A DNA stretch of 64,000 nucleotides from Hygrophila difformis (taxonomy: Eukaryota; Streptophyta; Magnoliopsida; Lamiales; Acanthaceae): assembly GCA_030278955.1 (NCBI GenBank), contig JAOANR010000011.1, positions 43,511,417 through 43,575,416 of the forward strand, in the 5' to 3' direction. The translations under genes and the position numbers were made by a program. The first letter of the stretch is position 1; each line of letters starts with the position of its first letter. Positions 30,101-63,532 of this stretch are shown one piece after another. The notes beneath the pieces were generated by a model. The model saw nothing but the letters and a program-made list of their open reading frames with translations. It was not told the origin of the DNA and searched no databases.

Positions 30101-31652
30101 TCATATGTTTTGTAACATTTCTTTGTACACAACATTAATCGTGGACTTTCTATCGCAATCCACATCGTCATCATTACAAATCATGATCTTCAGTCCAGCA
30201 CGTGTTGTTACTCTAGAAGCAGCAACATATAACTGACCATGGGTGAAAACGGCCTTGTTCAAGAATAATCCTACTTTGTGTAGGGATTGACCTTGACTTT
30301 TATTAATTGTCATTGCATAGCAAAGTATAAGTGGGAACTGTTTCCGCTCGAATTTGAAAGGGAGACGTGGATCCGACAGTGTTAAAGACATCCTTGGAAT
30401 AAGTACTTTCGCTCCAACATTTTCACCTGTGAGCACTTCACCTTGCAACACATTACTTCCGAGATGTGTGATGATTAACCTTGTGCCATTACATAGACCG
30501 TTAAGAGGATCAATATTTCTAATGAGAATCACAGGACTACCAACCTTTAGCCGTAAGCAATGCACAGGAAATCCAGAGCAATGTAAGGTGTTGAGAAACT
30601 CCACAGTATGAATGTCAGCCAAAAGTGAGGCATTACTATCAACTTGTGTTGCTCTATCTGCACTGAAATAGGTTCTGTCTTCGTTCATGTTCATTGAAAG
30701 TATGTGCTCATTGATCACGTCAACAGCCTTGATTGTTGGGCATAAAATAGCTCTCTCCTTTAAGTAATCGCGGTCAGACATGTTTTTGGAGAACAATGAA
30801 TAGATTTCTTCTACAATAGAAGAAACAGGATCATCAAAATAATTGATCAATAATTCATCAGGTATATCAATTTTTACTTCTCCCTCGTTCGAATCTCTAA
30901 TTCGTCCATCCCCTATAGCTGACAACCAAGTGGCAAACTTCTGTATTTCACACTGCTCATCTATTGTAGAAGCTGTACGAAGGCGCATGTTTTCAGTTAA
31001 GTATAGCACTGTACAATGTTTCCAAAGATAAGATGATGTCAACGTGGCATTGACAATATCCTGCCTCATTCCTTTGTGTATAACAGGGAGTATCTGTCTG
31101 AAATCGCCACCGAGTACAATTATTTTTCTGCCAAACACAACATCGTTTGAACCTGCAAGAATAGGCTGCATGAGATCACGTATTGTCCTATCCAATGCCT
31201 CAAAACAATGTCTATGTGTCATTGGTGCTTCATCCCATATGATTAGAGAAGCCTTCTGAATTAGCTCCGCAAGATGAGTGGATTGTTTTATATTGCATGT
31301 CGAATCTTCAACTATTTCAAGAGGAATCTTAAAGCGAGAGTGAGCAGTTCGGCCCCCTGGAAGCAACAAAGAAGCAATTCCACTTGATGCTACATTTAGT
31401 ACTATTTTGCCTTCCCTTCGAAGAGCAGCCGATAAGCCATTCCAGACAAATGTCTTTCCTGTTCCTCCATATCCATAAACAAAGAACAAACCACCTTTTC
31501 CAGATTTTATAGCAGTTAGAACTCTGTCATGTACTGTGCGCTGCTCCGGAGTACATTTTATGAGGAAGTCTTCATACTTCATTTGCATTGCACTATGATC
31601 ATATGCTAATTCTTGCATTAGTAACAAATTCTCATTGGAAAATGTTAGACCT
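30101..31652 (-). pseudogene. Helitron PIF1-type helicase, C-terminal part of the split Rep-helicase
   Basis: About 515 codons in one open frame after the insertion point. It holds the SF1B/PIF1 helicase motifs: Walker A GYGGTGKTF, Walker B IIWDEAPM, motif III LGGDFRQILPV, TINKSQGQSL and the motif VI-like YVAASRVTT. It ends with a typical Helitron tail (INVVYKEMLQNI). The domain unwinds DNA during rolling-circle transposition. It continues the frame that stops at 49410-49414 on the other side of the retroelement. The duplicated GACCT lies in both flanks. The domain itself shows no stop, but the gene is disrupted. Confidence 0.9.
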
Positions 31653-31955
31653 TGATAATGGCCAAAAATGACCATTATTTTCAATCCATTTCCGTGTCTT
31701 AAACGGGCATTTGATCGCATTCCGGTCTTACATTAAGTAAGAAAGCAGTCGAATTGGACTGATTTATGCATAATTGTAAAAATAATAAGCTGGTATGAAA
31801 AAGGCATAAATATGTAATTTTATTACATATTTATGTTAGAAAAATCCAAAAACATGAGAAAAAGAAAAGGAAACAAAAAGATGGGAAAAAGATAGAAAAG
31901 CCCACAAAAAGAATACTCTCGGCCCATCTGGCCCAATCCAGCAGGCCCAAGAAGA

Positions 31956-32117
31956 CCTTTGTCGCGAAAGCCCCTTGGCGCGATGCATGGTTCCGCGACA
32001 AAGGAACACTCCGCGACCAAGTGGCCCAGATGAAGAAGAGACCAGCGGAAGCCCCTTGGCGCGATACCTTTGTCGCGATGTGCTGTTCCGCGACAAAGGT
32101 CCATTCCGCGACCAAGG
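31956..32117. repeat. Palindrome units Ua and Ub in LTR U3
   Basis: Ua (31956-32021) has the arms CCTTTGTCGCG and CTTGGCGCG followed by CGCGACAAAGG and CGCGACCAAG. Ub (32054-32117) is nested: CCTTGGCGCGA outside, ACCTTTGTCGCG inside, then CGCGACAAAGGT and CGCGACCAAGG. Each unit is two forward and two inverted TCGCG-centred words within about 65 bp. They lie 150-310 bp upstream of the TATA box. A further single TTCCGCGACCAAA word is at about 32170. The identical set is at +13221 in the 3' LTR. Confidence 0.9.
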
Positions 32118-32272
32118 TACATTTTTAGAGACACAAGACCCAGTCGAGAAGCTTTGCCACATGCAGTGTGTTCCGCGACCAAACTTGGTGCTCTGAGACA
32201 AAGCTGTGATGTGTGTGATGTCTTGAGACACAATGGGCTCAAATCAAGGCCCATGAGCTTAGGGTTTCCCCT

Positions 32273-32282
32273 CTATAAATAT
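32273..32282 (+). promoter_or_regulatory. TATA box of the 5' LTR
   Basis: CTATAAATAT, in a good plant TATA context about 620 bp into the LTR. A transcription start about 30 bp downstream would make U3 about 650 bp and leave an unusually long R-U5 of nearly 3.9 kb. Confidence 0.65.
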
Positions 32283-32905
32283 GAGGTGTTTCCTTTGAGC
32301 TAAAGGTTGGAAGAATTTTAGAAAAACTACACCTTCTTGAAGACAAGTTGGGAAGTTCGGTAGTTTAGTGTAGTTTAGGGTAGTTTAGTTAGGTTTTCTT
32401 TTGTATTATTTAATTTATGCACTAGTTAGATGTAGTTTACTGCACTTTGGTTAGATAGCCAGTTTTTATACCTTGTTTTGGTTCTAAACTTTTGTTTAAG
32501 GGTTTGTGATACTCAAACCATGAGTATGAACAACACCATTCAATAAAATGGGAAAACATTCTCCATTTGTGTCCCAAAAATCATGAAATGGGTCTCACAC
32601 CCCATGGATCTTTGCTGTTTTCATTTTCCTTGGGTCATTTGACCCTTGTTTTTGCATTTTAATGTCGCTGCTTGGTGACTTTTTCTTGGGATAATGTTGC
32701 ATGTTTATGGATGATCAAGCTTAGATTAGGGTTTCTTAAGTTTTAAGTTTGCTTTATTTCTCTTTTGTGCAAGCATGTTCTAGCTAGATTCATATTCTGT
32801 TTTGTTATTTTGAGCTTAGTTTAGCTTTTGAATCTGAAATGGGTGAGATCACACATAATGCATGCCACTGTTCCACTTACTTTTCTGACATATGTACTGG
32901 ACACA

Positions 32906-33375
32906 CCTTTGTCGCGGAACAACCCTTGTCGCGGAGCCACGTTCCGCGACAAAATGATGCTTTGGCGACAAAGGCGCTAAAGGACATTTGTTGACCATTA
33001 TTTTAAAACCCTTGGTCGCGAAACAACCCTTGGCGCGGAACCACGTTCCGCGACAAAATCTTGATTAGCGACCAAGGATCCAAATGCTTGTGATTTTATT
33101 CTGGAAGGGCTTTGTCGCGAAGCAACCTTGTCGCGGAACCACGTTCCGCGCCAAACTTCTGTTCCGCGACAGGAATTATGCCTTGTCCAACTTTCTACCT
33201 TTTTGTCGCTATGCCCTTGTCGCGGAGCCACGTTTCGCGACAAAATTTTCTTTACTTAGCGACAAAACAAACCCTAAACTTTCAAAATTCCATTTCTCTT
33301 ATTTCCCACCCCTTTGTCGCGAAATCTTTGTCGCGGAGCCATGCTCCGCGACACGAACCCTGTATCGCGACAAAG
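32906..33375. repeat. Five-unit four-armed palindrome array in the LTR (about 100-bp period)
   Basis: Units at 32906-32974, 33010-33077, 33110-33173, 33201-33267 and 33312-33375. Each has order A, B, B', A'. The inner arms are mostly TTGTCGCGGA(A/G)C and its complement around a 3-nt CAC or CAT. The outer arms differ between units but remain matched: CCTTTGTCGC with GCGACAAAGG in unit 1, CCTTGGTCGC with GCGACCAAGG in unit 2, TTTTGTCGCTA with TAGCGACAAAA in unit 4. An identical array is in the 3' LTR at 46127-46596. Confidence 0.93.
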
Positions 33376-36188
33376 TGGCACCTTTTGCCAAATTCTCATT
33401 CTTCATCTCACTCCATTAATTAATTGAACCTTTATATTAATATTTTGAGGTTGAAATCCAATGATCTTAACCCATGATTAATTTGATATAAAGAACTTTG
33501 TTCAATTCCCTATTAAAAGATTCTTCTACAAACGATTAAACTCTAATGATCTAAGTATATAATCCGGACTGTAATTGACTAACTAATTATGGAATGGGTG
33601 ATTATTTAGACATGAAGAGTAATTGTGGATTTAATTCCATACCCTTGCATGAGAAACCAATGTCTCTCATGCAAGATGATCCAAAAATATTTTTCTTTTA
33701 TTTATTTTGTCTTTTCCCGTGTTGTGTGAAACAGCTAATAAGGAATATATCAGATTAATGTTGGCGGGTATTCCCATACGGATAACTAGCTCGTGATCTG
33801 TATATTAATTATTAGATGTTATTTTGCATGGTCCGGATAGTGGTCGGAGGACGCCTTGGCGGTTCGTCCATCCGGGATTATAATAGCTGCTCAGCTGACT
33901 CCTATCCGGATACAGTTTCTTTTTCGTTATCTTAATTTCAAACCCGAATTTTGAGCTGTAATAGTATCAAATGATGTCGATCAACATTGCTTGAATAGTA
34001 TTACAGCAAGAAAACATGTAGGTTTTTCTCTCGTTTCACAGATAGTAGGGGTCTTGATGATAGCGATCACTGTTGTTAAGATTATTCTACTATCTAAAAT
34101 CTTTCCATCTGGAATAATTGGGAACTGGATAGCAGATGTTTGCAGTCCAGATCACCCCAGTTGTTTCTGGCATTCTCTTTAGCCAAAATTCTTCTCATCT
34201 CCGGCTATTTCATCTCTGTGTGTCAACTTCTGTCTAAACCCACCTTATATTTTGGGTTATTTTATCTTACCCTTCTCTATAAAATTATGCATGATATTAT
34301 TATGTAGATATTGTGGTCGATATTATTTTGGGATCCTTCCCTTGGACATAGAAGTCTTGATTTAACTCAGATGTTTAATACTAAATTTCCAACAAAAATT
34401 CCTTTATAAAATCCGGATCTGAGTAAGGGATAAATTCGACAGTTATGACTAATTCATATCCGACTGGGGGTAGATTTTGGGAAATTAGAAGCAGAGTCAG
34501 CGATTAGGTCTCACCTAGACTGAAAGGGTCTGTGTCCTTATTGAGAGTCTAGTACCTGATAGGGAATGATTTTCAGATTTATTATTTTCCAAAATTGCTG
34601 TTTGTTGGAAATCTTGTATTAAATATTACACTGGGTCAGATTCCACTTGGATTCCGATAAGGTGTGACAGTTAATACTAGAGGAACAACATTCGGGCCTT
34701 GGTTATTTTCTAAGGTAGGGTTGAGTATTCTTTCAACTGCTATCTTCTTCTGCCAAAGCCTATTTTTAAGTCCTGAGTGAGTGCATCCGGAACGAACTAA
34801 TTTTATTAGTTCGTCTCATTAGTTTGTATCTCATAACCACCCGAAGGGAAGTGAGCACTGTAAGCGGTTCACTGAAAATAGGGAATTCTTGATCCACATC
34901 CGGTCATCCTGACTGGGGGCTTTCTTTTACTACCAGGGTCAAACTTTCAGAAACTTCCGAGTGATAGGACTTTAAATGCTTTCTTTATTGCTTTCTTTTA
35001 ACTGCTTCCTTTAGAGGTCACTCGGTTGTATTGAGAGTTGTGTAACTGCTACTAGGACTGAGAGTTAAGGGATAGTTCAGGGCTTAATTAGAATCTTTGG
35101 GCGTGACATGGGGGAATGATAACAGTACTTGGCACCTCAATAAATGATTTGTCAGGTGTTGCTTGTCCACCACGGATAATTAACATACCTTAGCAATGCA
35201 TTGCAAGGGTGGTTATGCGTCTGTGGTATCTTAGAATTTATTTTCTTAAGAGCATGTAAACTCTTACTGTAAGTACCTGTCTGTTAGAGGGAACATGGTG
35301 CAGAGAGCATGAGAATTAGCTAACTGAACGGATTATCCCAAACTAAGATCTGTGCAACAAAATGGAAGTTTAACTATATTTCATCTAAATCTTGTCCAAT
35401 CTTTATTCTTTTCTTCCTGTCCCTTCTGTCTCATTTAAATCTGCTTTCATAGGACAATCTTAATCGCTTTCTTAGATTAATCTTATTGCTTCCTTAGATT
35501 AAATTTAACTCGCTTTCTAGACTACTTTTATCTGCTTTATTTTAAATGCTTTCTTAATCTGATCTAGATTCTGTCAAGTAGTTGTTAGCCAAATCACACG
35601 CTTGATGCGAGTAACCGAGTGGAAAATCTTAGTAAATGACGTGGGACCTGCTTCTATCGCACATCCTCCAGTGAACGATCCGGTCTTACTATAAATTACT
35701 GCAATTTTTGACACCGTGCGCTTTCGGGAGCACAATTTCTTGACTACGAGCAATAAAAACATGACTACGTATAAATATATCCCTAATCACAACACCGCCA
35801 TCATAAATTGGTTTCATTAAATAAAACCTAAACCAGGATCACGACTTTTCATAAAATACTCATGAAGTGGGAATTAGTCAAAAGTTTCATGGCATGAAAT
35901 CTTATGGCAAGACTTGATGAGAAGTATCATGGCATATTTGCCGGGGATCCTCAGTGTGACAGGCTGAAGATCAACTCATCCCGGCTATGCCATGAGATTT
36001 GTCAGCATTTCATGACAGAGAGGACCACATTGCCATTTGAAATTAAAGCCCCTCACATGAGCAATAAATTGATAATCTTGACATATCCCTAAACCCTTTC
36101 CCGTGAATCATAACTCTTTTCATGCAATAAATCTAACCTGGTATATTTTAGCAAAAGCTCGAGTTAACGAAACTTGTCAAAAGTTTCA

Positions 36189-36206
36189 TGGCGCCGTTGC
36201 CGGGGA
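36189..36206 (+). other. Primer-binding site of the long-LTR element
   Basis: TGGCGCCGTTGCCGGGGA directly abuts the end of the 5' LTR. This primer-site word is common in plant Ty3/Gypsy elements, notably Athila. It shows that the element is read on the plus strand. Confidence 0.85.
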
Positions 36207-36328
36207 GGATGCAGCGTCATTTATTAAGAGGATTACACTCCTGATTACTCCTAGATTAGCTTAGATTAGTCTAGTTTAATGTAATATATTTAATTCAGAA
36301 CAGAAAAAGTACCCTCATGATCAATTGA

Positions 36329-36366
36329 ACATTTAGAGTACCAAGACTCTAAATGTGAGGATGTTG
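36329..36366 (+). other. Hairpin plus PPT-like word, internal copy 1
   Basis: An inverted repeat (ACATTTAGAGT, then ACTCTAAATGT) runs into AAATGTGAGGATGTTG at 36351-36366. The same 16-nt word precedes the 3' LTR (44860-44875) and the ORF region (38849-38864). Confidence 0.75.
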
Positions 36367-36717
36367 AACTGAGGAGAAAACCTAACCTAATGGGTATTTA
36401 TCTGTCTTGCAGGAAATTCGGAACCAACCAAAAAGAAGGAGCAGAAAAAGCAAGGAAAACCAGGTTCTTGGTTGGGAAAATTCCACAAATCTGAGAAACT
36501 ATTTTCGGAATTTAAAGAAATTTAAGATCCGGAATAAATCTTGCAGATAAATGGAACTGACCCGACCTAATTTTATGCAAGTAGATTATTTTAAATAATG
36601 GCCCAATGGTTTGAATTTACTTGGACTGAATTCATTCAGGTCCAACTCAAATAAAACGGATGCAGGCCCAATATCACACTCGGGCCCAATCCGTTGAAAA
36701 TTTGAAAATTCAAAAAG

Positions 36718-37223
36718 TTTGTCGCGGACTGACCATTTTGTCGCGGAACAACGTTCCGCGACCAAGTACAACTCCGCGACAAAACACCCCTTATCGGCAA
36801 CCCTTGTTTATCTTTGTCGCGGAATGACCATTCTGTCGCGGAACAACGTTACGCGACCAGGTGCAATTCCGCGACAAAATCTCACTCATCTCTGAACCTT
36901 TGTTTGTCTTTGTCGCGGAGTGATCATTTTGTCGCGATGCCCAGCATCGCGCCCATGTGCAAATTCCGCGACAAAGTTATACTCATCCCTAAACTCCGCC
37001 TGTCCTTGTCGCGGAACATTTTGTCGCGGAGCATGACTCCGCGACAGAGTTCCTACTCCGCGACACGGACACACCACTCCATCCCTTCTCGCCATTTTGT
37101 CGCGGTACACTTTGTCGCGGTGCATGACTCCGCGACAAAGTCCCACACTCCGCGACACCTCTAATGTCGCTGAGCCTGGTCGCGTAATCCTGTTCCGCGA
37201 CCATGGGCTAGGGTTCCGCGACC
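36718..37223. repeat. Six-unit four-armed palindrome array upstream of the internal gene promoter
   Basis: Units start at 36718, 36813, 36907, 37003, 37095 and 37164, a period of about 95 bp. Each has two TTGTCGCGG-type words followed by two CCGCGACAA-type words. Inner arms vary in pairs: GGAAC with GTTCC in unit 1, GATGC with GCATC in unit 3 and GGAG with CTCC in unit 4. The array ends about 10 bp before a TATTTAA box. Confidence 0.93.
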
Positions 37224-37230
37224 GGCCCAT

Positions 37231-37242
37231 TACTATTTAAAC
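37231..37242 (+). promoter_or_regulatory. Internal promoter TATA-like box
   Basis: TACTATTTAAAC lies just after the palindrome array and is followed by a C/T-rich initiator-like stretch (CTCTTCTTCCCC). The predicted start codon at 37401 would lie about 130 nt downstream of the transcription start. Confidence 0.5.
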
Positions 37243-37400
37243 CTCTCCGCCTCCCTCTTCTTCCCCACGCATTCGGACTTAGAAAATTTTCGAAAACACT
37301 CTCGCACACTCGAAACCTCTCCCGAAGCACACCACTGTGTTCTTCGCACTTTTCGAACGCCAAACCCAAGGGAAACTCTGCCCAAATTTTCGTAATCCTT

Positions 37401-40400
37401 ATGGAGCCATCAGGACCTTCATCTTCGTCCTCTCCGAAGCAAACCGAGCCTTGGTAAGCATTCCCCACCCTTTTCGTACGCGAACCGCTGCCCTGTTTTT
37501 GTGATTTTGGGGATTCCTGCGTTATTGCTCTCGATAATGTGTTAATGGGCGTCCTCATGGTTGTTTTCACTTAGTTGATTTTCAATCTTAGTGGTTCTGT
37601 GTATTGGGCATGTTTGGACTGTGATTCCCTGTTTTTATCATTAATGGCCGAATGTGGTGTTGGGGTTTGGTACTTTGGTTGGTTGATGGAGGGGCACAGA
37701 TGGAAGTGTTAGGGGTTGTAGAAATTTTGATTCCATGAAGGCTAGGGTTTGGCAGTGGCAGATTCCGCCATGGTTGTGGGTTTTGAGTTTTGAGATTCTT
37801 TTGCTTTTGTTTGTTCTAGTCTATTTTGCTAATGTTTTGTCTGTTTGATCTTGATACCTCCTGGATTGTTGAAAAATCTTGAAAAAGTGAGAGTTAATGA
37901 ATATAGGAATAATGCATGAGTAACAATATGCTGTTGTTTTTCTTGATTATAGAGCATGAATGATCTTGTAGTTTTTGAATATGTGAGGGATGAAGATGCT
38001 TTTAGTCCCATGTTTTGGCTCGAGTAGAGGCATGATCCTGTGTTTTTAACTTGCTGTGTTCATAAGTATTGCATGCTAAGGTGATCATTTAATGCCATTT
38101 CCTGTTTTGGTGTGTCTGTGTTTGTGTGCAGCAAATTGAGGAAAGTGAGTGTTTGCATTGTTTTTGGCATGTTAGTGCACACCAATTCCTTTTCAGCAGT
38201 GCACTTTTTCACTAAAAGACAAGAATAGTACTAGGAATTTTGGTTGACAATGTGTTTTTGTTCCCAATGGAATTAAAGAGTGTGAGTTAAGTAGCAGTAT
38301 TTTGCCACCTCAACTGCTACCTTTTGACAAAAATCCAAAAATGGGACCACACACACCCCACTTTTCATTAAATAAAAACAAGTCAACCTCTTCAAAATTA
38401 AAAATAGTGTTTGCATTTTCTTGAGCGTTTTAACTGTCCAATGACAGTCCAAACAATCCGGAGACAGCAAATCCATCCCGCCACGCCTCCACTGCACATT
38501 CCATTTTCGAGCCATCCGTTCCATTATCATCAACTCATTCCATTTTCAACAAGTGCCTCGAACTTGTTTAATAAAATTGGAAAAACAAACTTTTGGGCCC
38601 AATGGCCCACTAAAAAAGGAATTTTTGGTCCAATGACCACTTCACTTTTATTCTTATTTTATTTTTATTTTTATTTTCATTTTTATTTTTATTTTTATTT
38701 TTATTTTTATTCCTCCTTTTTGATTGGACTCAATAGTCCAATTAAGTTATCTCCTTCTAGGTCCTAAAGGATAATACCTTACATTTGGATCTTTTAAATA
38801 AACTCAGATTAAATCACTTAAATCACATTTCGAGCTTAGCAAAGCTCAAAATGTGAGGATGTTGGTTTTCACACCTGAGTAGTCTTTGAAAACTCATAAA
38901 AATTGTTGGATGCATCTAAGCACCTTGACCTTTTTCAGGAACGCATTAGTAGTGCACTCAGGCATCGGATTGCCTGACTGCACATATGAGGAAGCTGGCA
39001 ACCAGGCCTCAATTGATCGAACAGAGATCAAGGACACAAGAGAGGCCATCAAATCAGTTTATAAGGTGCCTCTGGACCACACTACAGATGAAAAGTTGAA
39101 ACTGTCTCCGGGATGGGATGTGCATATCCCTCCACAGGAAAGGTCAATAGTCGCTGCATCGATAGAAAGGGACTACTACCACTTCCTGAAGAAGTTTTGG
39201 GTAAGGATGATGGGGTATGCCCCCCAAGACGAAAAGACAACTCCTGAGGTCCATCATGAGCGCATCCAATTGAGGTTCAGAGAGCACAGGGCTGTATGGA
39301 ATCGGCATGTGGAGAAGGGAACAAAAGATCCAAATATAGCTGACTTCGACATCATCATTCCCAACCAGATCGTGGATCCTCAAGTTCGGATGGCCTTCGA
39401 ACACAAATACATGGATATAAGTAGGGTTATCAACAGTGGGGCCATCATGATGTATGAAGCATTTCCATTTAAGTGGAATCCGTATCTGTTTGAAGCAAAA
39501 GGACCAGTGGAGCAGAGGTGGATTACAGATCTAGCTCGGGCCAGGCATCGAGAGCTGACCTTCAACCTGTACAAGCGCCTCAAAAATGCTGAGAAGTTTG
39601 AGCAAAGCCGTAACACCTCACTGTTGAACACCATGAGGAAGATGATCAAGGATGCACGCGAACAATGGGATGACCTGACTACTGTCTGGGGAAAAGGCAA
39701 TCCAAGTATCACTGGGTCCTTTCTGGAAGAAGGAGTGGTACTACCTGCAGATGAGGTACTTGAAACCATCTTCACACACAGGAAGTATGGACAGTACGGG
39801 ACAAGCAAAGATGATGAATTTCCCCAGCACATAGCAGTACTAAGAGATCAGCTACAAGTGGATATACGCAAAGGTGGCTGGAAACCCAAAAGGAAAAATG
39901 AAAGGCAGTTCAATTTGCTATCGAAAGCTGAGGCTGGGATGTACCTCACGTACGATTCGGCAGAAGACATGTCCTACCTGGAAGGGATTCAAAAGGATCT
40001 GGTGGGAGGCATGATAGATCAATACAGAGACTCCTACTGGGACTTGATCATGGAGATGGATAAGTTTGCACTGGAATACTGCAACAGTACTGCTAATGGA
40101 AAGAAGGTCCTGCACTATAACAATAATGTTCGGAGTAAGTTCTGCTCCAAAATCAAGAAGGACTGGGAGGACCAACTGAGGAGAATATCTCAAAGGAGCT
40201 TTATTGAGGATTATTTGCAGCGTGCCGAGAAGCAACTAGGCTACGAGGGTGAACCGAACAGGGAAGAGGATCCCGACGCTGAAATTGACGCATATTTCTC
40301 CACTCCCCCTGAGGCCAACCCACAGCCTACCCAGCCAGCAATTCAAGCTTCAGCTTTGCCGCCTAGAGGACAGACTGAAGCACAAAAAGTCGTTACGTCC

Positions 40401-43214
40401 GAGCCAGTGGTGCAGTCGGCCCAGACTGAAACGACAACATCTGTTGTAGCACCTGCCACCACTAAGGCACCCACACAGCCCGAGAAACCTTCCACCACTG
40501 CTGCTACATCTGAAGGTCAACCGGGAATGAGGAGAAGGTTAATAAGGTCCGCTGATAAGGACAAGCCAGCAAGGGCTCCGGAAAAGAAAGTAGAAATCAA
40601 GGAACCGGAACCAACTGTTAGGAGAGTGGCAGAGCCCACTGATCCTAAGGACAAAGGTAAACAGCCAATGCCGCCGCCACCCCCGAAAAAGAAGCACCAG
40701 GTGATATCCGATGCTGAGCTAGCCATGAAGATGTACAATGAAGAGCTTGCATCAGCTGGTTTGCTGGATCAAGTGACAGGTGGTTCGGGAATAGAAAAAT
40801 TGACTGAGGAAGAACGCCTGGAAATGGAAAGGAAAGCTGCAGAGGAAGAGCAGATCCGAAAGAATATCCAGCAGACAAAGGATGAAGAAACTGCCAGAAA
40901 AATGCAGGCTGAGCTGGAAAGCAGGAAATCTGCAGAGGTTGAGCGGGGTAATGAGGAGGACTTTGAGCTAAAGATCACTGGAGAAGTGCAAGGGCGAGGT
41001 TTGAAAATCAAAGAAGAACAACCTCCTGCATGGACTGGCCCCACTGCACATGATGCTGAGACCATCCGAGGGGACATAAGGAAGAGGCTTAATGAACAAA
41101 TCGAGACGAGGATCGATGCTGGAGAAAAGCCACATCAAATCGAATATCAGACAAAAGTAGGTCAAGTGATCGATCCTCTCGTGGGCACAACCAGAATTGA
41201 AGAATTCATCACGCAAGGAGGCCCGTCTCACCAGCCTGAGCAATCCGAAGGACCGCAAGACTCCATAGATCCGGTGGCACTAGACAAAATCCTGGAAAAG
41301 CAGCCAGACGACCCTCTCATGACCTCTGCACTTAAAGAAAAGGTTCAAGGAATTCTGACTGAAGCTGCAGATGGAAACGATTCGGAAGAAGAAGCTCGGC
41401 AGGAGGAACAAGAATTCATGAATCAAATGGCGCCTATTCTCCAACGTCCAATTGGACGAGCTGCAAGAGTTAGGGAGGAGGAGGAGGTATCAACTGATGT
41501 TGATGACCGTAATTTTCATGTAACTGCATCTTTTTCACCTGTAAACTGTGAACTCAATACGATGAAACATGTAATTAAACAGGTTGAGGAGGCAGTCGGA
41601 GATGAAGCAGCACATGGAGAGCGAGAGCCGAGTCAGAGGGGAGATGAGGCTGAACCAGGGAATGACCAGCCACAGGAGGGAGACGAGCAAACAGACTGGC
41701 ACTCGAGTGACGACGAGTCTGTCGGATCCATTCGACCAGTCGAGTTTTGGTCCGAAAACACTGTAAGGCAAAGAATGGGCGTCGCAAAAGAATATGGGAA
41801 GAAAAAGCTCAGCGAAGAACAGATCCAGATCAAGTTCAATGGCAGCAAAGAGAGTGCAGAGAAGTATAAGAAGTTGCAGAAGATGATAGTGCCAGACAAA
41901 GGGTTCAGGCCTGATGCGTTGTCACACCCCACTGTTGAAACTTTCTACAGAAATCAAGAGTGGGGTAACTTCATGTTGCATCATGACGAAGATGGCTTCG
42001 TGGAGCTGACAAAAGAATTCTTCTGCAACATCGATGAAGCTGCCAGAACAACATGGATCCGGGGACAAGTGATCAACATTGCACCTGATTGGCTGAACCA
42101 GTTCTTCGGGACCCCAGAGATTCAAAGCGAATTTCCCCCTGGTGAAATCATGACAAAAAGAGCCAAAACGACTGAATATGCGAAGTATGCTACACTGGCT
42201 AACAGCATGACAAGCGTGACCGCCCCGGGACATACATTCAACGCAAAATGGCTGCGAATACAATTCATGCCAACCTACGAATTCTACATGTCTAAGATCC
42301 GGCCCAACTCGCATCCGCACACCACATCTGGAAATGTGTTAATGGGATTTGCAAGGATGTGGGGCGGAGCAAAACTTAATGTAGGGAGGCATGTATTTGA
42401 GGTGATGATAACCCGCATAAAGGATCGACAGGTGCTGTGTTATCCGAATCTGATTAGGAGAATCTGCATAGCTCAGGGAGTTGATTTGAGCGCTTTTGAG
42501 GGCGACACAGTGGTGAAGGTGAACCCACCTATCAGTGTGCCAAGACTTCCCTTGAGTGAGAGTATCAAATATTCCCTTCCCCAACTGTCCGGCAGAGGAG
42601 ATTCGGACGCTCAATCCTCTTTCATATCGGGTGAGCAGGCATCAAGGAAGCGAAAGAGGCAGCCGAAGACAAAGAAGGGAACACAAAACACCTGTGCTGA
42701 TGCAGGACCTTCGAATGTTCGAGAGGAGCCTCCCGCAGACCAAGAACGGACTGAGATTCCAATCCCGCCTCCGACTCAACCTCAACCTCAGATGCCTCCT
42801 CAAAGCCAGAATGTATCTCAGTTCCCTGCTGATTCTCAAACGATTGAGATGGTGAGCAGAATGAGTCAGTCTATGCTTGAGGGGATGAAATCCATGACTG
42901 ATGTAATTTTGGCAAGCCAAGAGGGACAGCAGAAAAGGGCAGAAGAGGAGCGTGAAGAGCGAAGGAGGGAGAGAGAAGAAGAACGCGAGGAGCGTAGGAG
43001 GGAAAAGGAAGAGAAACGGAGAGAAAAGTTGGAAAAGGAAAGGAGAGACGAGGAATTCAGAATGATGATGCTGGAAAAAGAAGAGAAGAATCGAAAAATG
43101 GTGGAATCACTGATCCTTAGTCAGACTCAGCTCCTGCAAACCTTACTTAAGAAGATCCCTGATGAGGCTGGCTCCTCCAAGAAATCAGACGAGAAGAAAG
43201 ATGGTGATCCCTGA
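37401..43214 (+). CDS. 1442-residue protein of the long-LTR element, plant-transposon-protein domain
   Basis: Predicted exons are 37401-37453 and 38939-43214. The donor is CCTTG|GTAAGC, the acceptor lies in a T-rich tract ending TTTTTCAG, and the phase matches. Without splicing, the long frame itself is open from 38886 to 43214. Residues 1-460 are globular and unrecognised. About 470-610 is Pro/Thr/Glu-rich. About 635-690 is a charged helix. About 1000-1206 resembles the putative plant transposon protein domain (PF20167-like) found in Athila-type elements (the segments WIRGQVINIAPDWLNQFFG, KLNVGRHVFEVMI and YPNLIRRICIAQGVDL). About 1345-1410 is an Arg/Glu coiled coil. There is no reverse transcriptase, protease, integrase or zinc knuckle. 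The frame is intact in a young insertion, suggesting recent selection. The function is unknown. Confidence 0.8.
37454..38938 (+). other. Predicted 1485-bp intron of the internal gene
   Basis: T-rich, without long frames. It contains a (TTTTTA)n tract at about 38650-38711. Near its 3' end is a second hairpin (CACATTTCGAGCTT, then AAGCTCAAAATGTG) running into the AAATGTGAGGATGTTG word at 38849-38864. Confidence 0.6.
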
Positions 43215-44873
43215 CTCCTTTAATTCTGAGCTTAATTGTAAATATCATATAAGAGAATTTCAATTCATCCATGCAAGATAGATTTGAATTGCAAATGAAA
43301 TCTCTTGTAATTGATATAATTACTGCTTTCAAATTGGGATTTTGCAACCCCAACAACAATCTTTGTTTTTATTTGGTTCTTTTATTTCTGAAAAGATGTC
43401 TGACAGTCCGAGATGAATAAGTGACTGTCAGGCCAAAAATATGCTGTTGACATACTCAGTATGTCAGCAGTGCCTCTTTACTGCTTTCAATTAAATAACC
43501 AGCAAAAATATGCATAAACTTGCTCTAAATTCACAGGTTGAATTTAGGCTTATGATTGAATCTTCAAACTTTTAAATTGGGATAATATAATTGAGAACAT
43601 GCATGACATGAATTCCTGAGGTTTTGAGCTATAAAAATTTAATGATGCGATCAGCTTATTGGGTAATAAATCTGCATGTTAGAGATCTCGATTGAATAAA
43701 TTGTTAGAGTTAAGCTTTGATTAAATTTGAGAACACTGCATGACATGAATGAACCATTCCTTGTGAGATTTGAGCCATGAGTCATTTTTACTCATTCGTT
43801 TTCTTTGATGAGTGAATCTTTTTGATTAAAGGAAACTAGAACTTGCAGTTGGGACCGATTCAAGACCATGCCGTATTCCCGAAATCGAGAATATGATCGA
43901 GGCACCTAGAAAAACCAAATTTTTGGCCTTCGTTTGAAATCCAAACCCAAAAATATTTTCCCGTTAGGATTAACCAATTTAAACCTATAAGCCTAATTTT
44001 TCTTTGGAACCCTCTATATTATTCCTAGCCTTACAAAAAGACCAAGAAATGCAAACCCAAGTGTGCAAGGATGAGTTTTATCAAAGGCAGTAAATTTATG
44101 ATCATCATGAAAACTATAAATCGGAATTCTATAAACCGATTCAAAAAAAAAAAAAAAAAAAAAAAAAAAAACGAGAGAGTTGAATTCCATTCAACATCAA
44201 TAAATTGCAAATTGACAAAGCAAATTAGACATAATCTAATGTCATGCAATATGAAAAGAGAAAAGCAAAAGAAAGAAAGGAAAATTGATGATCATATATT
44301 TTAAATAAATATGCCAAGTTATGATAGAATTAATTCTTGCCACTTCTTAGCCCAATAATTTCCTTTCCTACCGAATGTTACAACCGTATGCCCCATTACA
44401 ACCCTCGAATGAGACCTCGTGATCCCGATTTGAAGAAATGAGCCGGTGGCGAGTTGGTCTGACTGCAAGCTTATGGGATAATTTAATTAAATATGATTTT
44501 GAGCGTTCATGATTAAACCCCAATTGAGAGTGAGTGAATTTTCCGATTCTCTTATAAGTAAGGCCTTTTCTCATTACATATGTTCATGTCATGCCTTAAT
44601 TCTAATTTTTAATCTTTGCATCTTTCAAAACATGATATTCATGAAGGATTGATAATAATGTTTGATTTGTAGGCCCGATACAGTGAGCAAGCATCATTTC
44701 ATTAAACACTGCAATCAAGGGAATTCAATACTAGTAGTTCTGATTATCTTATCCCAATTCAAAAAGGATGTGATTTATGAAGCCACGAAAATGAATTGAA
44801 TATGTAGAGTCCGTGTTCCGAGGAACATTGACTCTGACTGCTCGGGGACGATCAGTATTAAATGTGAGGATGT
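43215..44873. other. Internal 3' noncoding region of the long-LTR element
   Basis: Between the ORF stop and the 3' LTR. It holds a 29-base A run (44143-44171) and two similar GAACATGCATGACATGAATT/GAACACTGCATGACATGAAT blocks (about 43593 and 43732). No reverse transcriptase or other pol coding sequence is present on either strand. Confidence 0.6.
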
Positions 44874-44875
44874 TG
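44860..44875 (+). other. Polypurine-tract region at the 3' LTR border
   Basis: The word AAATGTGAGGATGTTG straddles the 3' LTR boundary (the LTR starts at 44874 with TG). Its position is that of the plus-strand primer (PPT), although it is not a pure purine run. Two additional exact copies lie inside the element. Confidence 0.55.
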
Positions 44876-47800
44876 ATAATGGCCAAAAATGACCATTATT
44901 TTCAATCCATTTCCGTGTCTTAAACGGGCATTTGATCGCATTCCGGTCTTACATTAAGTAAGAAAGCAGTCGAATTGGACTGATTTATGCATAATTGTAA
45001 AAATAATAAGCTGGTATGAAAAAGGCATAAATATGTAATTTTATTACATATTTATGTTAGAAAAATCCAAAAACATGAGAAAAAGAAAAGGAAACAAAAA
45101 GATGGGAAAAAGATAGAAAAGCCCACAAAAAGAATACTCTCGGCCCATCTGGCCCAATCCAGCAGGCCCAAGAAGACCTTTGTCGCGAAAGCCCCTTGGC
45201 GCGATGCATGGTTCCGCGACAAAGGAACACTCCGCGACCAAGTGGCCCAGATGAAGAAGAGACCAGCGGAAGCCCCTTGGCGCGATACCTTTGTCGCGAT
45301 GTGCTGTTCCGCGACAAAGGTCCATTCCGCGACCAAGGTACATTTTTAGAGACACAAGACCCAGTCGAGAAGCTTTGCCACATGCAGTGTGTTCCGCGAC
45401 CAAACTTGGTGCTCTGAGACAAAGCTGTGATGTGTGTGATGTCTTGAGACACAATGGGCTCAAATCAAGGCCCATGAGCTTAGGGTTTCCCCTCTATAAA
45501 TATGAGGTGTTTCCTTTGAGCTAAAGGTTGGAAGAATTTTAGAAAAACTACACATTCTTGAAGACAAGTTGGGAAGTTCGGTAGTTTAGTGTAGTTTAGG
45601 GTAGTTTAGTTAGGTTTTCTTTTGTATTATTTAATTTATGCACTAGTTAGATGTAGTTTACTGCACTTTGGTTAGATAGCCAGTTTTTATACCTTGTTTT
45701 GGTTCTAAACTTTTGTTTAAGGGTTTGTGATACTCAAACCATGAGTATGAACAACACCATTCAATAAAATGGGAAAACATTCTCCATTTGTGTCCCAAAA
45801 ATCATGAAATGGGTCTCACACCCCATGGATCTTTGCTGTTTTCATTTTCCTTGGGTCATTTGACCCTTGTTTTTGCATTTTAATGTCGCTGCTTGGTGAC
45901 TTTTTCTTGGGATAATGTTGCATGTTTATGGATGATCAAGCTTAGATTAGGGTTTCTTAAGTTTTAAGTTTGCTTTATTTCTCTTTTGTGCAAGCATGTT
46001 CTAGCTAGATTCATATTCTGTTTTGTTATTTTGAGCTTAGTTTAGCTTTTGAATCTGAAATGGGTGAGATCACACATAATGCATGCCACTGTTCCACTTA
46101 CTTTTCTGACATATGTACTGGACACACCTTTGTCGCGGAACAACCCTTGTCGCGGAGCCACGTTCCGCGACAAAATGATGCTTTGGCGACAAAGGCGCTA
46201 AAGGACATTTGTTGACCATTATTTTAAAACCCTTGGTCGCGAAACAACCCTTGGCGCGGAACCACGTTCCGCGACAAAATCTTGATTAGCGACCAAGGAT
46301 CCAAATGCTTGTGATTTTATTCTGGAAGGGCTTTGTCGCGAAGCAACCTTGTCGCGGAACCACGTTCCGCGCCAAACTTCTGTTCCGCGACAGGAATTAT
46401 GCCTTGTCCAACTTTCTACCTTTTTGTCGCTATGCCCTTGTCGCGGAGCCACGTTTCGCGACAAAATTTTCTTTACTTAGCGACAAAACAAACCCTAAAC
46501 TTTCAAAATTCCATTTCTCTTATTTCCCACCCCTTTGTCGCGAAATCTTTGTCGCGGAGCCATGCTCCGCGACACGAACCCTGTATCGCGACAAAGTGGC
46601 ACCTTTTGCCAAATTCTCATTCTTCATCTCACTCCATTAATTAATTGAACCTTTATATTAATATTTTGAGGTTGAAATCCAATGATCTTAACCCATGATT
46701 AATTTGATATAAAGAACTTTGTTCAATTCCCTATTAAAAGATTCTTCTACAAACGATTAAACTCTAATGATCTAAGTATATAATCCGGACTGTAATTGAC
46801 TAACTAATTATGGAATGGGTGATTATTTAGACATGAAGAGTAATTGTGGATTTAATTCCATACCCTTGCATGAGAAACCAATGTCTCTCATGCAAGATGA
46901 TCCAAAAATATTTTTCTTTTATTTATTTTGTCTTTTCCCGTGTTGTGTGAAACAGCTAATAAGGAATATATCAGATTAATGTTGGCGGGTATTCCCATAC
47001 GGATAACTAGCTCGTGATCTGTATATTAATTATTAGATGTTATTTTGCATGGTCCGGATAGTGGTCGGAGGACGCCTTGGCGGTTCGTCCATCCGGGATT
47101 ATAATAGCTGCTCAGCTGACTCCTATCCGGATACAGTTTCTTTTTCGTTATCTTAATTTCAAACCCGAATTTTGAGCTGTAATAGTATCAAATGATGTCG
47201 ATCAACATTGCTTGAATAGTATTACAGCAAGAAAACATGTAGGTTTTTCTCTCGTTTCACAGATAGTAGGGGTCTTGATGATAGCGATCACTGTTGTTAA
47301 GATTATTCTACTATCTAAAATCTTTCCATCTGGAATAATTGGGAACTGGATAGCAGATGTTTGCAGTCCAGATCACCCCAGTTGTTTCTGGCATTCTCTT
47401 TAGCCAAAATTCTTTTCATCTCCGGCTATTTCATCTCTGTGTGTCAACTTCTGTCTAAACCCACCTTATATTTTGGGTTATTTTATCTTACCCTTCTCTA
47501 TAAAATTATGCATGATATTATTATGTAGATATTGTGGTCGATATTATTTTGGGATCCTTCCCTTGGACATAGAAGTCTTGATTTAACTCAGATGTTTAAT
47601 ACTAAATTTCCAACAAAAATTCCTTTATAAAATCCGGATCTGAGTAAGGGATAAATTCGACAGTTATGACTAATTCATATCCGACTGGGGGTAGATTTTG
47701 GGAAATTAGAAGCAGAGTCAGCGATTAGGTCTCACCTAGACTGAAAGGGTCTGTGTCCTTATTGAGAGTCTAGTACCTGATAGGGAATGATTTTCAGATT

Positions 47801-49409
47801 TATTATTTTCCAAAATTGCTGTTTGTTGGAAATCTTGTATTAAATATTACACTGGGTCAGATTCCACTTGGATTCCGATAAGGTGTGACAGTTAATACTA
47901 GAGGAACAACATTCGGGCCTTGGTTATTTTCTAAGGTAGGGTTGAGTATTCTTTCAACTGCTATCTTCTTCTGCCAAAGCCTATTTTTAAGTCCTGAGTG
48001 AGTGCATCCGGAACGAACTAATTTTATTAGTTCGTCTCATTAGTTTGTATCTCATAACCACCCGAAGGGAAGTGAGCACTGTAAGCGGTTCACTGAGAAT
48101 AGGGAATTCTTGATCCACATCCGGTCATCCTGACTGGGGGCTTTCTTTTACTACCAGGGTCAAACTTTCAGAAACTTCCGAGTGATAGGACTTTAAATGC
48201 TTTCTTTATTGCTTTCTTTTAACTGCTTCCTTTAGAGGTCACTCGGTTGTATTGAGAGTTGTGTAACTGCTACTAGGACTGAGAGTTAAGGGATAGTTCA
48301 GGGCTTAATTAGAATCTTTGGGCGTGACATGGGGGAATGATAACAGTACTTGGCACCTCAATAAATGATTTGTCAGGTGTTGCTTGTCCACCACGGATAA
48401 TTAACATACCTTAGCAATGCATTGCAAGGGTGGTTATGCGTCTGTGGTATCTTAGAATTTATTTTCTTAAGAGCATGTAAACTCTTACTGTAAGTACCTG
48501 TCTGTTAGAGGGAACATGGTGCAGAGAGCATGAGAATTAGCTAACTGAACGGATTATCCCAAACTAAGATCTGTGCAACAAAATGGAAGTTTAACTATAT
48601 TTCATCTAAATCTTGTCCAATCTTTATTCTTTTCTTCCTGTCCCTTCTGTCTCATTTAAATCTGCTTTCATAGGACAATCTTAATCGCTTTCTTAGATTA
48701 ATCTTATTGCTTCCTTAGATTAAATTTAACTCGCTTTCTAGACTACTTTTATCTGCTTTATTTTAAATGCTTTCTTAATCTGATCTAGATTCTGTCAAGT
48801 AGTTGTTAGCCAAATCACACGCTTGATGCGAGTAACCGAGTGGAAAATCTTAGTAAATGACGTGGGACCTGCTTCTATCGCACATCCTCCAGTGAACGAT
48901 CCGGTCTTACTATAAATTACTGCAATTTTTGACACCGTGCGCTTTCGGGAGCACAGTTTCTTGACTACGAGCAATAAAAACATGACTACGTATAAATATA
49001 TCCCTAATCACAACACCGCCATCATAAATTGGTTTCATTAAATAAAACCTAAACCAGGATCACGACTTTTCATAAAATACTCATGAAGTGGGAATTAGTC
49101 AAAAGTTTCATGGCATGAAATCTTATGGCAAGACTTGATGAGAAGTATCATGGCATATTTGCCGGGGATCCTCAGTGTGACAGGCTGAAGATCAACTCAT
49201 CCCGGCTATGCCATGAGATTTGTCAGCATTTCATGACAGAGAGGACCACATTGCCATTTGAAATTAAAGCCCCTCACATGAGCAATAAATTGATAATCTT
49301 GACATATCCCTAAACCCTTTCCCGTGAATCATAACTCTTTTCATGCAATAAATCTAACCTGGTATATTTTAGCAAAAGCTCGAGTTAACGAAACTTGTCA
49401 AAAGTTTCA
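44874..49409 (+). repeat. 3' LTR (4536 bp)
   Basis: Same length as the 5' LTR and offset from it by 13221 bp throughout, so no indels separate them. Substitutions noticed are at 45554, 47415, 48097 and 48956. It carries the same TATA box (about 45494) and palindrome arrays (45177-45338 and 46127-46596). Confidence 0.95.
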
Positions 49410-52400
49410 GACCTCCTGTTGGATATTTCCTTGTTGGGAATTCACGGAGAGTTCTACCAAGTCTTTGTAATAGCTTCTCCATCAAAAGAAGTGTTAAATT
49501 CTCCAACTCATCATCATAAATCTCACCCCCTGTTGAGATGAAATATAATTGTTACAAAAATAAAAGTGAAACAAATATTCTATATCATCCGAGAAATATT
49601 CTATATCATTGCATGGTACAAAAATATTCTATATTAACTCACCATATATATAATTCTTGTTTATGTCGTGCAATATATCATCCGAGAAATATCTCCAACA
49701 CCTGCTCCATATCATGCCAAGATCCATTACACTGTCTGAAAGAATCATCGACAAAAATAGATTCCGTAGTGAAACCGAAGAAGCCCAGTGACTCGCTTCT
49801 TCAATCGCATCGATGTATTCACGGTCATCATCTAACAATCCCAATGAATAGCATGCTTCTTTGAAGGTTGCAAACTGCACACCGTTGACACATCACAATG
49901 CTTCATAGCTTGTAGGACCACGAACTACATTAAGAAGACATCTTAAGTAGTACAGTTCACCTGAGGATGGATGAACAAAATGCATCCTACCAACTGAAAA
50001 ACCCCGTTTCCTTGGCTGCCAAACCCTACAATCTTCTTTCCAAACAAATTTGGAAGGAAATTCTGTGTATGTTAGCTCTCTCGCCTCTGGATAAATTGAA
50101 TTTGCTTTGAACCATGCAATGAATTTACTTTCTCTTATTGTTGCACGCTCAACTATATTGGCAACTGTATCTATATCAGAAAAACAACAGGTTGTTGTCC
50201 TTGCAGATGGAAGGACAATCTTTCAACAGGAGGGGTCCGAAAATGTATGTCAAACATGAACAACCTCCATGCAGCCTCACACGATGATATATACCTACAA
50301 TCATAAAAAATCTGTGTTTCATCAGTGGTCTTTCCTGGCTGAATATTTTCAGTAGATGCATAAAAGCTAGCCGTGACACGATCATGTCCTTTATGCACAT
50401 ATTTGAATAAGTACTTTATAGAACGACTCTGATTACACCATTCAACATTTATATGAGCACGGTATTTCATCAACAGAGAACGATTGTGTGGAACCACACT
50501 GCGGTTATCAAGAACCACTCCACTTTTCTCAATGGTACGTCCATTATTACGTCGTCTATAGACAGGATAGCCATTCTCATCAACACTTGTATCAACAACA
50601 AATTGTTTTGGATAGTGCTTTGAACATTTTCCGTCCACCATGCAAGAAGAACTCGTTCTGGCTACCCCACATGGACCATGCACCATAAACTCTGATACAA
50701 CCTCATAATATTCAGGGTCATTCATTCTATCAGGTATTTCAGCTGAAATAATGTTGTTGATTTCTTTAGATGTTACATTAACATTGAGCTTTCGCAGGAA
50801 CAGCAGAATATGTGCATGAGGAAGACCACGCTTTTGGAATTCAATTGTGTACACAACTGTTAACATGAATATATCAAAAATAAAAAAAAATAACATGTAT
50901 TCATTACTAAGAATTAATTTTGACATATGAAAAAATAGACAGTACCTGCCCTAACCCCTCCAAAGAAATCATTTTTAAAATCTGTAATCATCTTGTCTAA
51001 TTTCATCTTGAACACTCGAACAATGATATCAGGTCTGTCTGATGCAGTCACTTTATGCTTTCTAAGATACCTTGTAATTTCTGGCCAATTAGATTGTAGG
51101 TAAACGTGATAAAAAGATTAGGGTAGCCTGCCCAGCCACATATTATAATGGCATCTTGATAGTTTTGTATCATGTACCTAGCACCCCAGTGAATGAAGAA
51201 GGCAGAATAATTCGCTTCCCTATGTTTCTTGTATCAGACTCTTCATTTAATAGAGCCTCTTCCAGTCCATGATACATATCACATCGAAGTTTCTTTTGAT
51301 TTCTCCTTACGTATGAAATCCTCCGTGATTCAACCATTGCATAGGTATCTACCAGAAATTGCTGGAATAATCTCTTGGATTGCAATATCATTGAAGGCTC
51401 AGATTCTCTAAAATGAATTCTATATGAAATAAATTCCCTAAGGGATAACTTTCTCCTCTTCAGACATGTAAGACTAGGATTATTATCACCAACCAATATA
51501 CCATCTCTAAAACCATCTTCCCCATATGGGAATAGAAGAGGATACTGTAGGGAAAGGTAAGCTGGATGCAACTCAGATATGTGATGTAACTGACCACCTT
51601 TAGTTTCCACAACTATATCCCTTGGTTCAATAGTATCATCCAAGTCTCCGACAATTAAAGCAGCGACTTCTGATTGTGCAGGCAAGTTATAAGTCCTGCC
51701 GTCACGATCTCTTCTCCCAATAAGTCTCAACCGCACATTACCACTGTTGTGAAGATTCAACTTATCCCTTGCCATCCTATATGTCTGTGCCAACACATTG
51801 TATCTGTCTAGCATCTGAATGAGGTCTGCAACAATTTCAGGATTTAAGTTTTCTTTGCCGGTACCACCCCTGATTGATGACAATGTAACATCAAGAAAAA
51901 AAAATTAGTATAGACACATATTCTGACTTAAAAATGTAACATCAAATATTATTGACTTAAAAAAATTTCCTAAACATTTACCTGACTGACTTTATCCTAT
52001 TAGCAACCTCATGTTCTGTATCATATATGTATAATTGGCTAAATTTTGGAGTTTTGCCATCAGAGGGCAGTAAATTTCCGATTTTTGTGGTAATTTTGAC
52101 CCATGAGTCGAATTATAGGAGGTGAATTTCCGGTGTTGAGGCTCCTATCAATTTTACCACCCATCGAAGTAAAACTAAACATGCTGTTGTAGGACCGAAT
52201 CTCTTGGAGAAAGTTTGTGCTCCGGCTACAACTACCACCATACAAATCCCTCAATAGAGGGGGAGGAATGGGCATCTTGGGCAGTACAACTTTCCCATTT
52301 AAACAACAATTAGAATAGGTTGGCTGCTGGTGTTTCAAATCCCTTTTGGATTTCTCGTCGTACAAAAAATTTGCTGAGCACATCCCACAAGTATGAACGG

Positions 52401-62683: not shown

Positions 62684-63532
62684 GTTTTAAAGTGTTGTTG
62701 TTTAGGGTAAGAATAATGAGAGAATATGCAATATACATTATATGCTTTAGGGTTGTTTATATATGACATTATTGAATTGGATTGAGGATAATGTGTAGTG
62801 AAAAGGGCCTAGGGCATAGGGTTGATTGGTGAGTGTTTAAGGTATACAGAAAGCGCCACATATTAAATGGTAATTTAGTAAAAAACTTGAATTGGTGGTT
62901 AATACGTAATGATGAAATTTACTGTACCGATTTTTTTATCAACTGGTGTCTAGCTTTATCGAATACAACACTATATGGAAGCTCTTTGCAGATATTATTT
63001 ATTGAATCACGTATTTTAAAATTAATAACCCTTTATTGGGAACACCATTAGCCGAAAACTTTTTGCAGCACATATTTATTGGAGCATTGTATTTATGTTT
63101 TAAAGTGTTGTTTTAGTGTTTATTGTTCAAGGTTTAGGGTAAGAATAATGAGAGAATATGCAATATACATTATATGCTTTAGGGATTTTTATATATGACA
63201 TTATTGAATTGGATTGAGGATAATGTGTAGTGAAAAGGGCCTAGGGCTTAGGGTTGATTGATGAGTGTTTAAGGTATACAGAAAGCGCAACATATTAAAT
63301 GGTAATTTAATAAAAAACTTGAATTGGTGGTTAATACGTAATGATGAAATTTACTGTACCGATTTTTTTATCAACTGGTGTCTAGCTTTATCGAATACAA
63401 CACTATATGGAAGCTCTTTGCAGATATTATTTATTGAACCACATATTTTAAAATTAATAACCCTTTATTGGGAACACCATTAGCCGAAAACTTTTTGCAG
63501 CACATATTTATTGGAGCATTGTATTTATGTTT
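62684..63532. repeat. Tandem duplication, two units of about 415-435 bp
   Basis: Unit 1 (62684-63096) and unit 2 (63097-63532) start with GTTTTAAAGTGTTG and end with GGAGCATTGTATTTATGTTT. Unit 2 has about 20 bp extra near its start. A 72-codon frame (62833-63051 and 63265-63483) is almost identical in both but resembles nothing I recognise, so it is probably incidental. Confidence 0.9.

Follow-up and report, generated by a model that had tools for sequence, protein, structure and literature searches.

Arrays of four-arm palindromic units as probable cis-regulatory elements in a Ty3/gypsy-type LTR retroelement family of Hygrophila difformis

What explains long rows of nested inverted repeats inside a plant LTR retroelement? 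Such rows are present in a 64,000-nucleotide stretch of Hygrophila difformis DNA (the window), in which an earlier note had described units with two forward arms followed by two reverse arms (A B B' A'). In this study, we examined the units in the window and in other copies of the element. The explanation that we consider probable is that the arrays are cis-regulatory palindromes, predicted targets of a dimeric protein, which would drive an LTR promoter and an internal promoter in a family of the Ty3/gypsy type.

The retroelement and its arrays

The element has the features of an LTR retrotransposon, namely near-identical LTRs, TG..CA ends and a target site duplication of 5 bp (GACCT, at 31648-31652 and 49410-49414) that borders it (Table 1). 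The LTR pair aligned at 99.8%, and inside the borders 4 substitutions were found in 4536 bases. Since only four substitutions separate the LTRs, the insertion is recent. The primer binding site is presumably of the tRNA-Asp type. A single long sense ORF (38886-43214) lies within the element. Because no gag or pol domain was found among the Pfam matches of this ORF, the window copy was taken as non-autonomous. The retroelement is nested within a Helitron, with minus-strand PIF1 helicase and Helitron_like_N ORFs on both sides.

Table 1. Features of the retroelement, in positions of the window
Feature	Position	Strand	Basis or remark
LTR retroelement, 17.8 kb	31653..49409	+	LTR pair and junctions
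5' LTR, 4536 bp	31653..36188	+	partner 3' LTR 44874-49409
U3 array, two four-arm units	31956..32119	+	
Degenerate third U3 unit	32150..32205	+	two reverse arms at 18.1 and 11.6 bits
TATA-like box TATAAAT of the predicted LTR promoter	32274..32280	+	GGCCCA and AGGGTTT words ahead
R/U5 array, five four-arm units, downstream of LTR TATA	32906..33378	+	
Primer binding site	36189..36206	+	sequence adjoining LTR end
Internal array, six four-arm units	36718..37224	+	ahead of accessory ORF
TATA-like box TATTTAAA of the predicted internal promoter	37234..37241	+	9 bp past last arm
Predicted coding exon 1, 53 bases, phase 2	37401..37453	+	ATG 37401, ends at GTAAGC
Predicted intron GT..AG	37454..38938	+	in-frame donor and acceptor
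Accessory ORF, PF20167 domain	38939..43214	+	open frame from 38886, 1442 aa
3' LTR copies of the U3 and R/U5 arrays	45177..46599	+	

The count of 13 units and their places in the three arrays agreed with the earlier note, and both LTR sets recur at +13221 as it had stated. All 13 units read + + - -, which is the nested order that had been described. The regular period of about 95 bp was borne out only in part: the units do repeat, and their intervals form a soft period with a mean of 94.9 and an SD of 8.8 (162 intervals below 140 bp, taken from the window and from 32 further stretches). No helical phase was found in the spacing of these intervals. Random arms and irregular spacing were sought in other copies, and the nested symmetry and the repetition of units held there.

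To score the arms, we derived a matrix from sites of the element itself. On this scale, 51 of 52 arms were above 6 bits, with a range of 7.0 to 28.2; in the last unit, arm 1 was positioned by visual inspection. The same own-site matrix gave 93 matches in the window, with 10 outside the arrays and the best of those at 13.0 bits, so that arms are almost confined to the U3, R/U5 and internal arrays. Conservation of the arm core was not counted as evidence, because the sites had been gathered by match to the core. In seven stretches from other copies (L138, L143, L144, L149, L150, L153 and L155), the U3 units were wholly or partly + - - -, in place of the + + - - of other LTRs. In the six such LTRs that were measured, a TATA-like box lay 35-38 bp past the last arm.

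The number of units differs among copies. Of 20 internal arrays, 17 had 5 or 6 units and three had 3 or 4, and one of these three came from a partial stretch; complete R/U5 arrays had 3 to 7 units per copy. This variation would be expected if the arrays were passive, that is, if tandem duplication made them and hairpin-templated mutation kept their arms alike without any function. We regard such an origin as distinctly unlikely, for reasons of spacing that are given below.

Inner spacing and covariation of the arms

The strongest feature of the units is a rigid inner spacing of 9 bp, which was absent from the first observation. In the window, the inner arms start 18 bp apart in 13 of 13 units, which leaves 9 bp between the 9-mers, whereas the outer distances vary from 13 to 19 (A-B) and from 18 to 22 (B'-A'). 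In the genome (915 Mb), 15,839 of 16,248 perfect dyads (97.5%) had a spacer of exactly 9 bp, 100 had 0-8 bp and 309 had 10-20 bp, counts in which copies share descent and hence are not independent events; reversed-pattern controls gave 0, 3 and 0. A wider pattern of 5-30 bp, which includes outer pairs, matched 25,306 times compared to 3 in the control.

The same spacing was seen when copies were inspected in smaller sets. The window together with 12 stretches from other copies yielded 91 inner dyads, with starts 18 bp apart in 87, 17 in three and 19 in one. The window and 32 stretches gave 172 units with four arms, and the spacing was 18 in 148 of them, a share that is biased low because 18 of the 32 stretches had been chosen for holding a displaced dyad. 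It was as in the window in 103 of 104 dyads from 20 further copies of the window's subfamily, and it was 18 in 84 of 84 dyads from 28 copies of a second subfamily with an F-box ORF. The A-B distance was 14-19 and the B'-A' distance 18-22 in 170 of the 172 units. Since both of these distances vary, the inner spacing is the constrained one. Passive duplication leaves the fixed inner and variable outer spacing unexplained. A scan of viral contigs for the 9-bp dyad returned one stretch with a single dyad (L207:5149-5175), which is likely a chance match, and a scan of bacterial genomes with spacers of 7-11 bp returned 111 stretches, which were also taken as chance.

The outer arms and the inner arms had been reported to covary. 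In the window alone this was weak, with p ~0.05 for A-A' and p ~0.048 for B-B', each the best among several column ranges under within-array shuffles, and in the first U3 unit the best pairing joined arms 1 and 3, which is not nested. The claim gained support, though modest, from other copies. Similar units were clustered, each cluster was represented by one of its units, and unit halves were exchanged at random between units of the same array class. With column ranges picked after earlier looks and p-values uncorrected for multiple tests, 21 clusters gave 77 of 126 matches at the A-A' outer end (62.4 expected, p 0.0006) and 61 of 84 at the B-B' inner end (51.3 expected, p 0.0003). In 30 clusters, with classes set by a simple rule on the central bases and p-values likewise uncorrected, the outer flank of A-A' gave 101 of 180 (86.2 expected, p 0.003) and the inner flank of B-B' 84 of 120 (80.0 expected, p 0.016). 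Coarser clustering gave uncorrected p-values for A-A' and B-B' of 0.04 and 0.057 (19 clusters) and of 0.013 and 0.10 (11 clusters). The four non-nested pairings had no excess of matches in the 21 clusters. There was no covariation at the A-A' inner end or the B-B' outer end, and B-B' across all columns gave p 0.77 within classes (30 clusters). These results support nested covariation across copies at a modest level.

Covariation of this kind raises the question of whether the units work as RNA, as two-step hairpins in transcripts that serve packaging, translation control or small RNAs. In the 30 clusters, nested pairs covaried at the p-values given above and non-nested pairs did not. Predicted folding was far stronger than in shuffles, with z -10.8 for the R/U5 array and -15.2 for the internal array, as any palindrome array would show. 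Non-Watson-Crick pairs comprised 18 G-U and 30 A-C in 20 clusters, and in the covarying flanks G-U was less frequent than in shuffles. Because wobble pairs are not favoured, the covariation gives no special support to RNA. Hairpin loops tolerate changes in length, yet the 9-bp spacer is nearly invariant. Furthermore, transcription of the accessory gene is predicted to start downstream of the internal array, which would therefore be absent from the accessory mRNA. An excess of small RNAs has been described over the palindrome clusters of Sireviruses, in the account that a 2023 paper (PMC10760457) gives of Bousios 2016. RNA hairpins are the main rival, mostly owing to the array downstream of the LTR TATA; we judge them possible but rather unlikely as the general explanation. 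For the R/U5 array in particular, an RNA role may apply, as its transcript is predicted to fold strongly.

The lack of a G-U excess also bears on passive arrays. Quasi-palindrome correction would yield Watson-Crick covariation without G-U, and this is the pattern that was seen.

TATA-like boxes and accessory genes

The U3 and internal arrays each lie ahead of a TATA-like box. In the window, the LTR box is 72 bp beyond the last U3 arm. We scanned 28 loci and measured 24, the other four not showing the two arrays together, and the distance was 72 bp in 15 of the 24, 71 bp in 3 and 35-38 bp in 6. The distance from the internal array to its box was 8-10 bp, and exactly 9 bp in 46 of 48 copies. Twenty of these were the further copies of the window's subfamily, of which 19 had a gap of 9 bp and one a gap of 8 bp. 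They had been chosen by the exact TATA-leader pattern, which occurs 277 times in the genome and includes the box, so that in this set the box is given and the gap is not. The other 28 were F-box copies, in which the arms were followed by TATTTATA at 9 bp (27 copies) or 10 bp (1 copy). In these copies the array and box were unselected, because the search targeted the ORF. The two subfamilies (PF20167 and F-box) differ in TATA, leader, exon 1 and ORF, and the near-constant distance from arm to TATA was thus found with different genes. Passive arrays do not explain this constancy.

The arrays are also rich in CpG. The observed/expected ratio was 1.02 in the U3 array, 1.51 in the R/U5 array and 1.46 in the internal array. 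Seven other parts of the element were measured for comparison: six had 0.09-0.64, and the seventh, the stretch past the internal array, had 1.24. Host recognition offers another reading of this density, in which the arrays do not activate the element but act as silencing triggers or as CpG-dense targets of methylation. The strong predicted folding would suit such triggers as well. A trigger that harmed the element would hardly retain its exact geometry across over 15,000 dyads, and we consider this reading very improbable. GGCCCA words, which we take to be TCP 'site II' motifs, stand beside the U3 and internal arrays.

The frame that follows the internal box resembles an exon. The acceptor at 38939 carries the frame of exon 1 into the accessory ORF, to which predicted splicing would join it. 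This ORF matched PF20167 ('Putative plant transposon protein') with E 1.5e-12, and in two more copies of the window's subfamily it was about 92-95% alike. Exon 1 differed from that of L123 by a single 3-bp gap and by changes in 9 other codons, of which 6 were silent.

Relatives of the element carry other genes. Over the first 1.6-1.8 kb their LTRs are 76-80% identical to those of the window, and beyond that the identity is 68-75%. Pieces of three copies contained gag (PF03732), RT, RNase H and integrase in gypsy order, together with a weak protease match slightly under the Pfam cut-off. The window's element has no pol domain of its own by Pfam, and its gypsy order is read from L129, a relative with homologous LTRs in which the Ty3/gypsy pol order (RT, RNase H, integrase) is present. 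In the gag-pol relatives, the internal array follows pol and precedes a different accessory ORF, which matched TPR_27 and F-box; the latter match exceeded the Pfam cut-off in one of two copies scanned. The F-box-like protein occupies the position of an ENV-like gene in these relatives (L130:295-1008; L132:950-1663).

A search for the F-box ORF gave 6117 first-look candidates, and most of the 150 that were scored had no inner stop. The best 30 of the 150 were fetched, and the start of exon 1 was located in 28; these copies are close relatives. Exon 1 had phase 2 in 27 of these 28, and the predicted spliced protein had 243 aa in 25. Between two copies, 108 of 185 base changes were at third positions, and from its sequence the F-box ORF looks coding. 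Protein database searches with the PF20167 region and the F-box ORF gave no match at E 0.001. In a comparison that covered 36189-38886 and L117, L127 and L157, the leader, internal promoter and intron of the non-autonomous subfamily were about 73-83% identical to the post-pol region of the F-box subfamily, and the ORFs are different. The window's subfamily thus appears as if gag-pol had been lost and the accessory ORF exchanged.

Because the spacer is base-exact, the TATA distance near-constant and the CpG-rich modules repeated mostly five or six times, we read the units as promoter-proximal arrays for a dimer. A dimeric DNA-binding protein would recognise the inner dyad in each four-arm module, and the binder on a whole unit may be a dimer or a tetramer. 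It could be a host factor or a protein encoded by the element. The U3 array beside its TATA-like box would serve the LTR promoter, and the internal array beside its own box would serve a second promoter for the accessory gene; both promoters are presumed to be in use. The weakest step concerns the R/U5 array, which may be a downstream enhancer or part of a further start region. This array is 626 bp downstream of the LTR TATA and fits the promoter reading least. TATTTAA was present 14-16 bp past it in only 11 of 24 loci and was not found there in the window's element; a third promoter beyond this array is suggested in those 11 loci only.

Other observations also count against promoter arrays. 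The CpG ratio is high past the internal array as well, and some LTRs have U3 units that read + - - -. Nested covariation is not needed for simple protein binding. The fixed distances could be partly due to recent common descent, because the best-scoring F-box loci (30) and exact-pattern copies (20) were sampled.

A broader proposal would make the family a retroelement regulon, in which the element family itself encodes, or has taken over from its host, a single dimeric protein that would read the fixed four-arm code and co-activate the LTR and the second promoter. The F-box product, as an adaptor in autonomous copies, or the PF20167 protein in non-autonomous copies would remove a silencing factor of the host, and the element would thereby bear its own anti-silencing circuit. 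We hold this to be a long shot.

Comparison with known systems

In copia elements, integrase precedes RT. The family studied here has the Ty3/gypsy gene order, which sets it apart from Sireviruses, and Sirevirus membership was rejected because the copia order was not found. The earlier note held that no standard part of an LTR element explains the units. This was too strong, as the palindromic boxes of Sireviruses, which are Ty1/copia elements, are similar (PMC2829016). The passages of PMC2829016 on these RM boxes describe many palindromes, nearly all with a CGG-CCG core and accompanied by CpG islands, which cluster ahead of the TATA box in the LTR and, a second time, ahead of ENV; its authors found support for an internal ENV promoter yet pinpointed none. 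The present arrays share with them, as so described, the many copies of CGG-CCG-core palindromes upstream of the LTR TATA, the richness in CpG and, in the F-box relatives, further boxes ahead of an extra gene past pol. The window's own element differs from these relatives in that its internal array precedes the PF20167 ORF and there is no pol. Unlike the Sirevirus boxes in those passages, the present units consist of four nested arms around an inner spacer of 9 bp, a third array is placed after the LTR TATA, and the extra gene encodes an F-box or PF20167 protein.

If the promoter reading is true, the two great groups of LTR elements, copia (Sireviruses) and gypsy (this family), both possess palindromic promoter arrays. 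Both groups would place arrays before the LTR TATA and before an extra gene, and this common placement would point to a shared regulatory solution. The 9-bp geometry is present in thousands of natural copies in one genome, which would make the reader protein directly testable. The accessory F-box gene would be a candidate for how such elements deal with the host.

Grande is a Ty3/gypsy element. Past pol and ahead of the 3' LTR it carries an additional gene that has a promoter of its own (Gomez-Orte 2013, as cited in PMC7264820 and PMC11963269). An extra gene in this position is found here also; by those accounts the Grande gene is antisense, whereas the present accessory ORF is sense and its promoter is predicted only. 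Retand elements are likewise of the Ty3/gypsy group (PMC11963269). About half of them contain tandem arrays, some are non-autonomous, and a long region separates pol from the 3' LTR. All have antisense ORFs there, with a TRP28 domain in 97% of clusters, and their LTRs are 315-1194 bp (PMC11963269). The long region, the arrays and the non-autonomous members are similar here, but the present LTR is 4536 bp long, its arrays consist of palindromes, and the accessory ORF runs in sense. By analogy, the present family would unite Sirevirus-like boxes with a Grande-like accessory promoter in gypsy elements, with a stricter four-arm geometry.

Known binding sites were compared as well. The usual arm, as we understand the consensus sequences, fits neither CAMTA (CGCG box) nor E2F well. 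Auxin response factor sites were rejected, since 13 bp separate the TGTCGC hexamers in the inner dyad and the canonical form given in PMC10690724 is TGTCNN inverted repeats 7-8 bp apart (IR7/8). No retroelement was among the titles of the matches listed when the arm words were sought in full-text literature, and no report of the four-arm unit was among the literature matches listed, judged by titles and abstract openings.

Other features were seen elsewhere in the window. At 14911-16380, 36 GCCGCCAG words in a single orientation, often 15-22 bp apart, form a direct array in another LTR element, where it adjoins a gag ORF (PF03732, 16490-17464 minus); we take these words to be GCC-box-like. An ORF at 4907-6247 resembles a FAR1/MULE transposase. 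A tandem repeat of 432 bp, with 1.9 copies at 98%, lies at 62700-63532 near TTTAGGG repeats.
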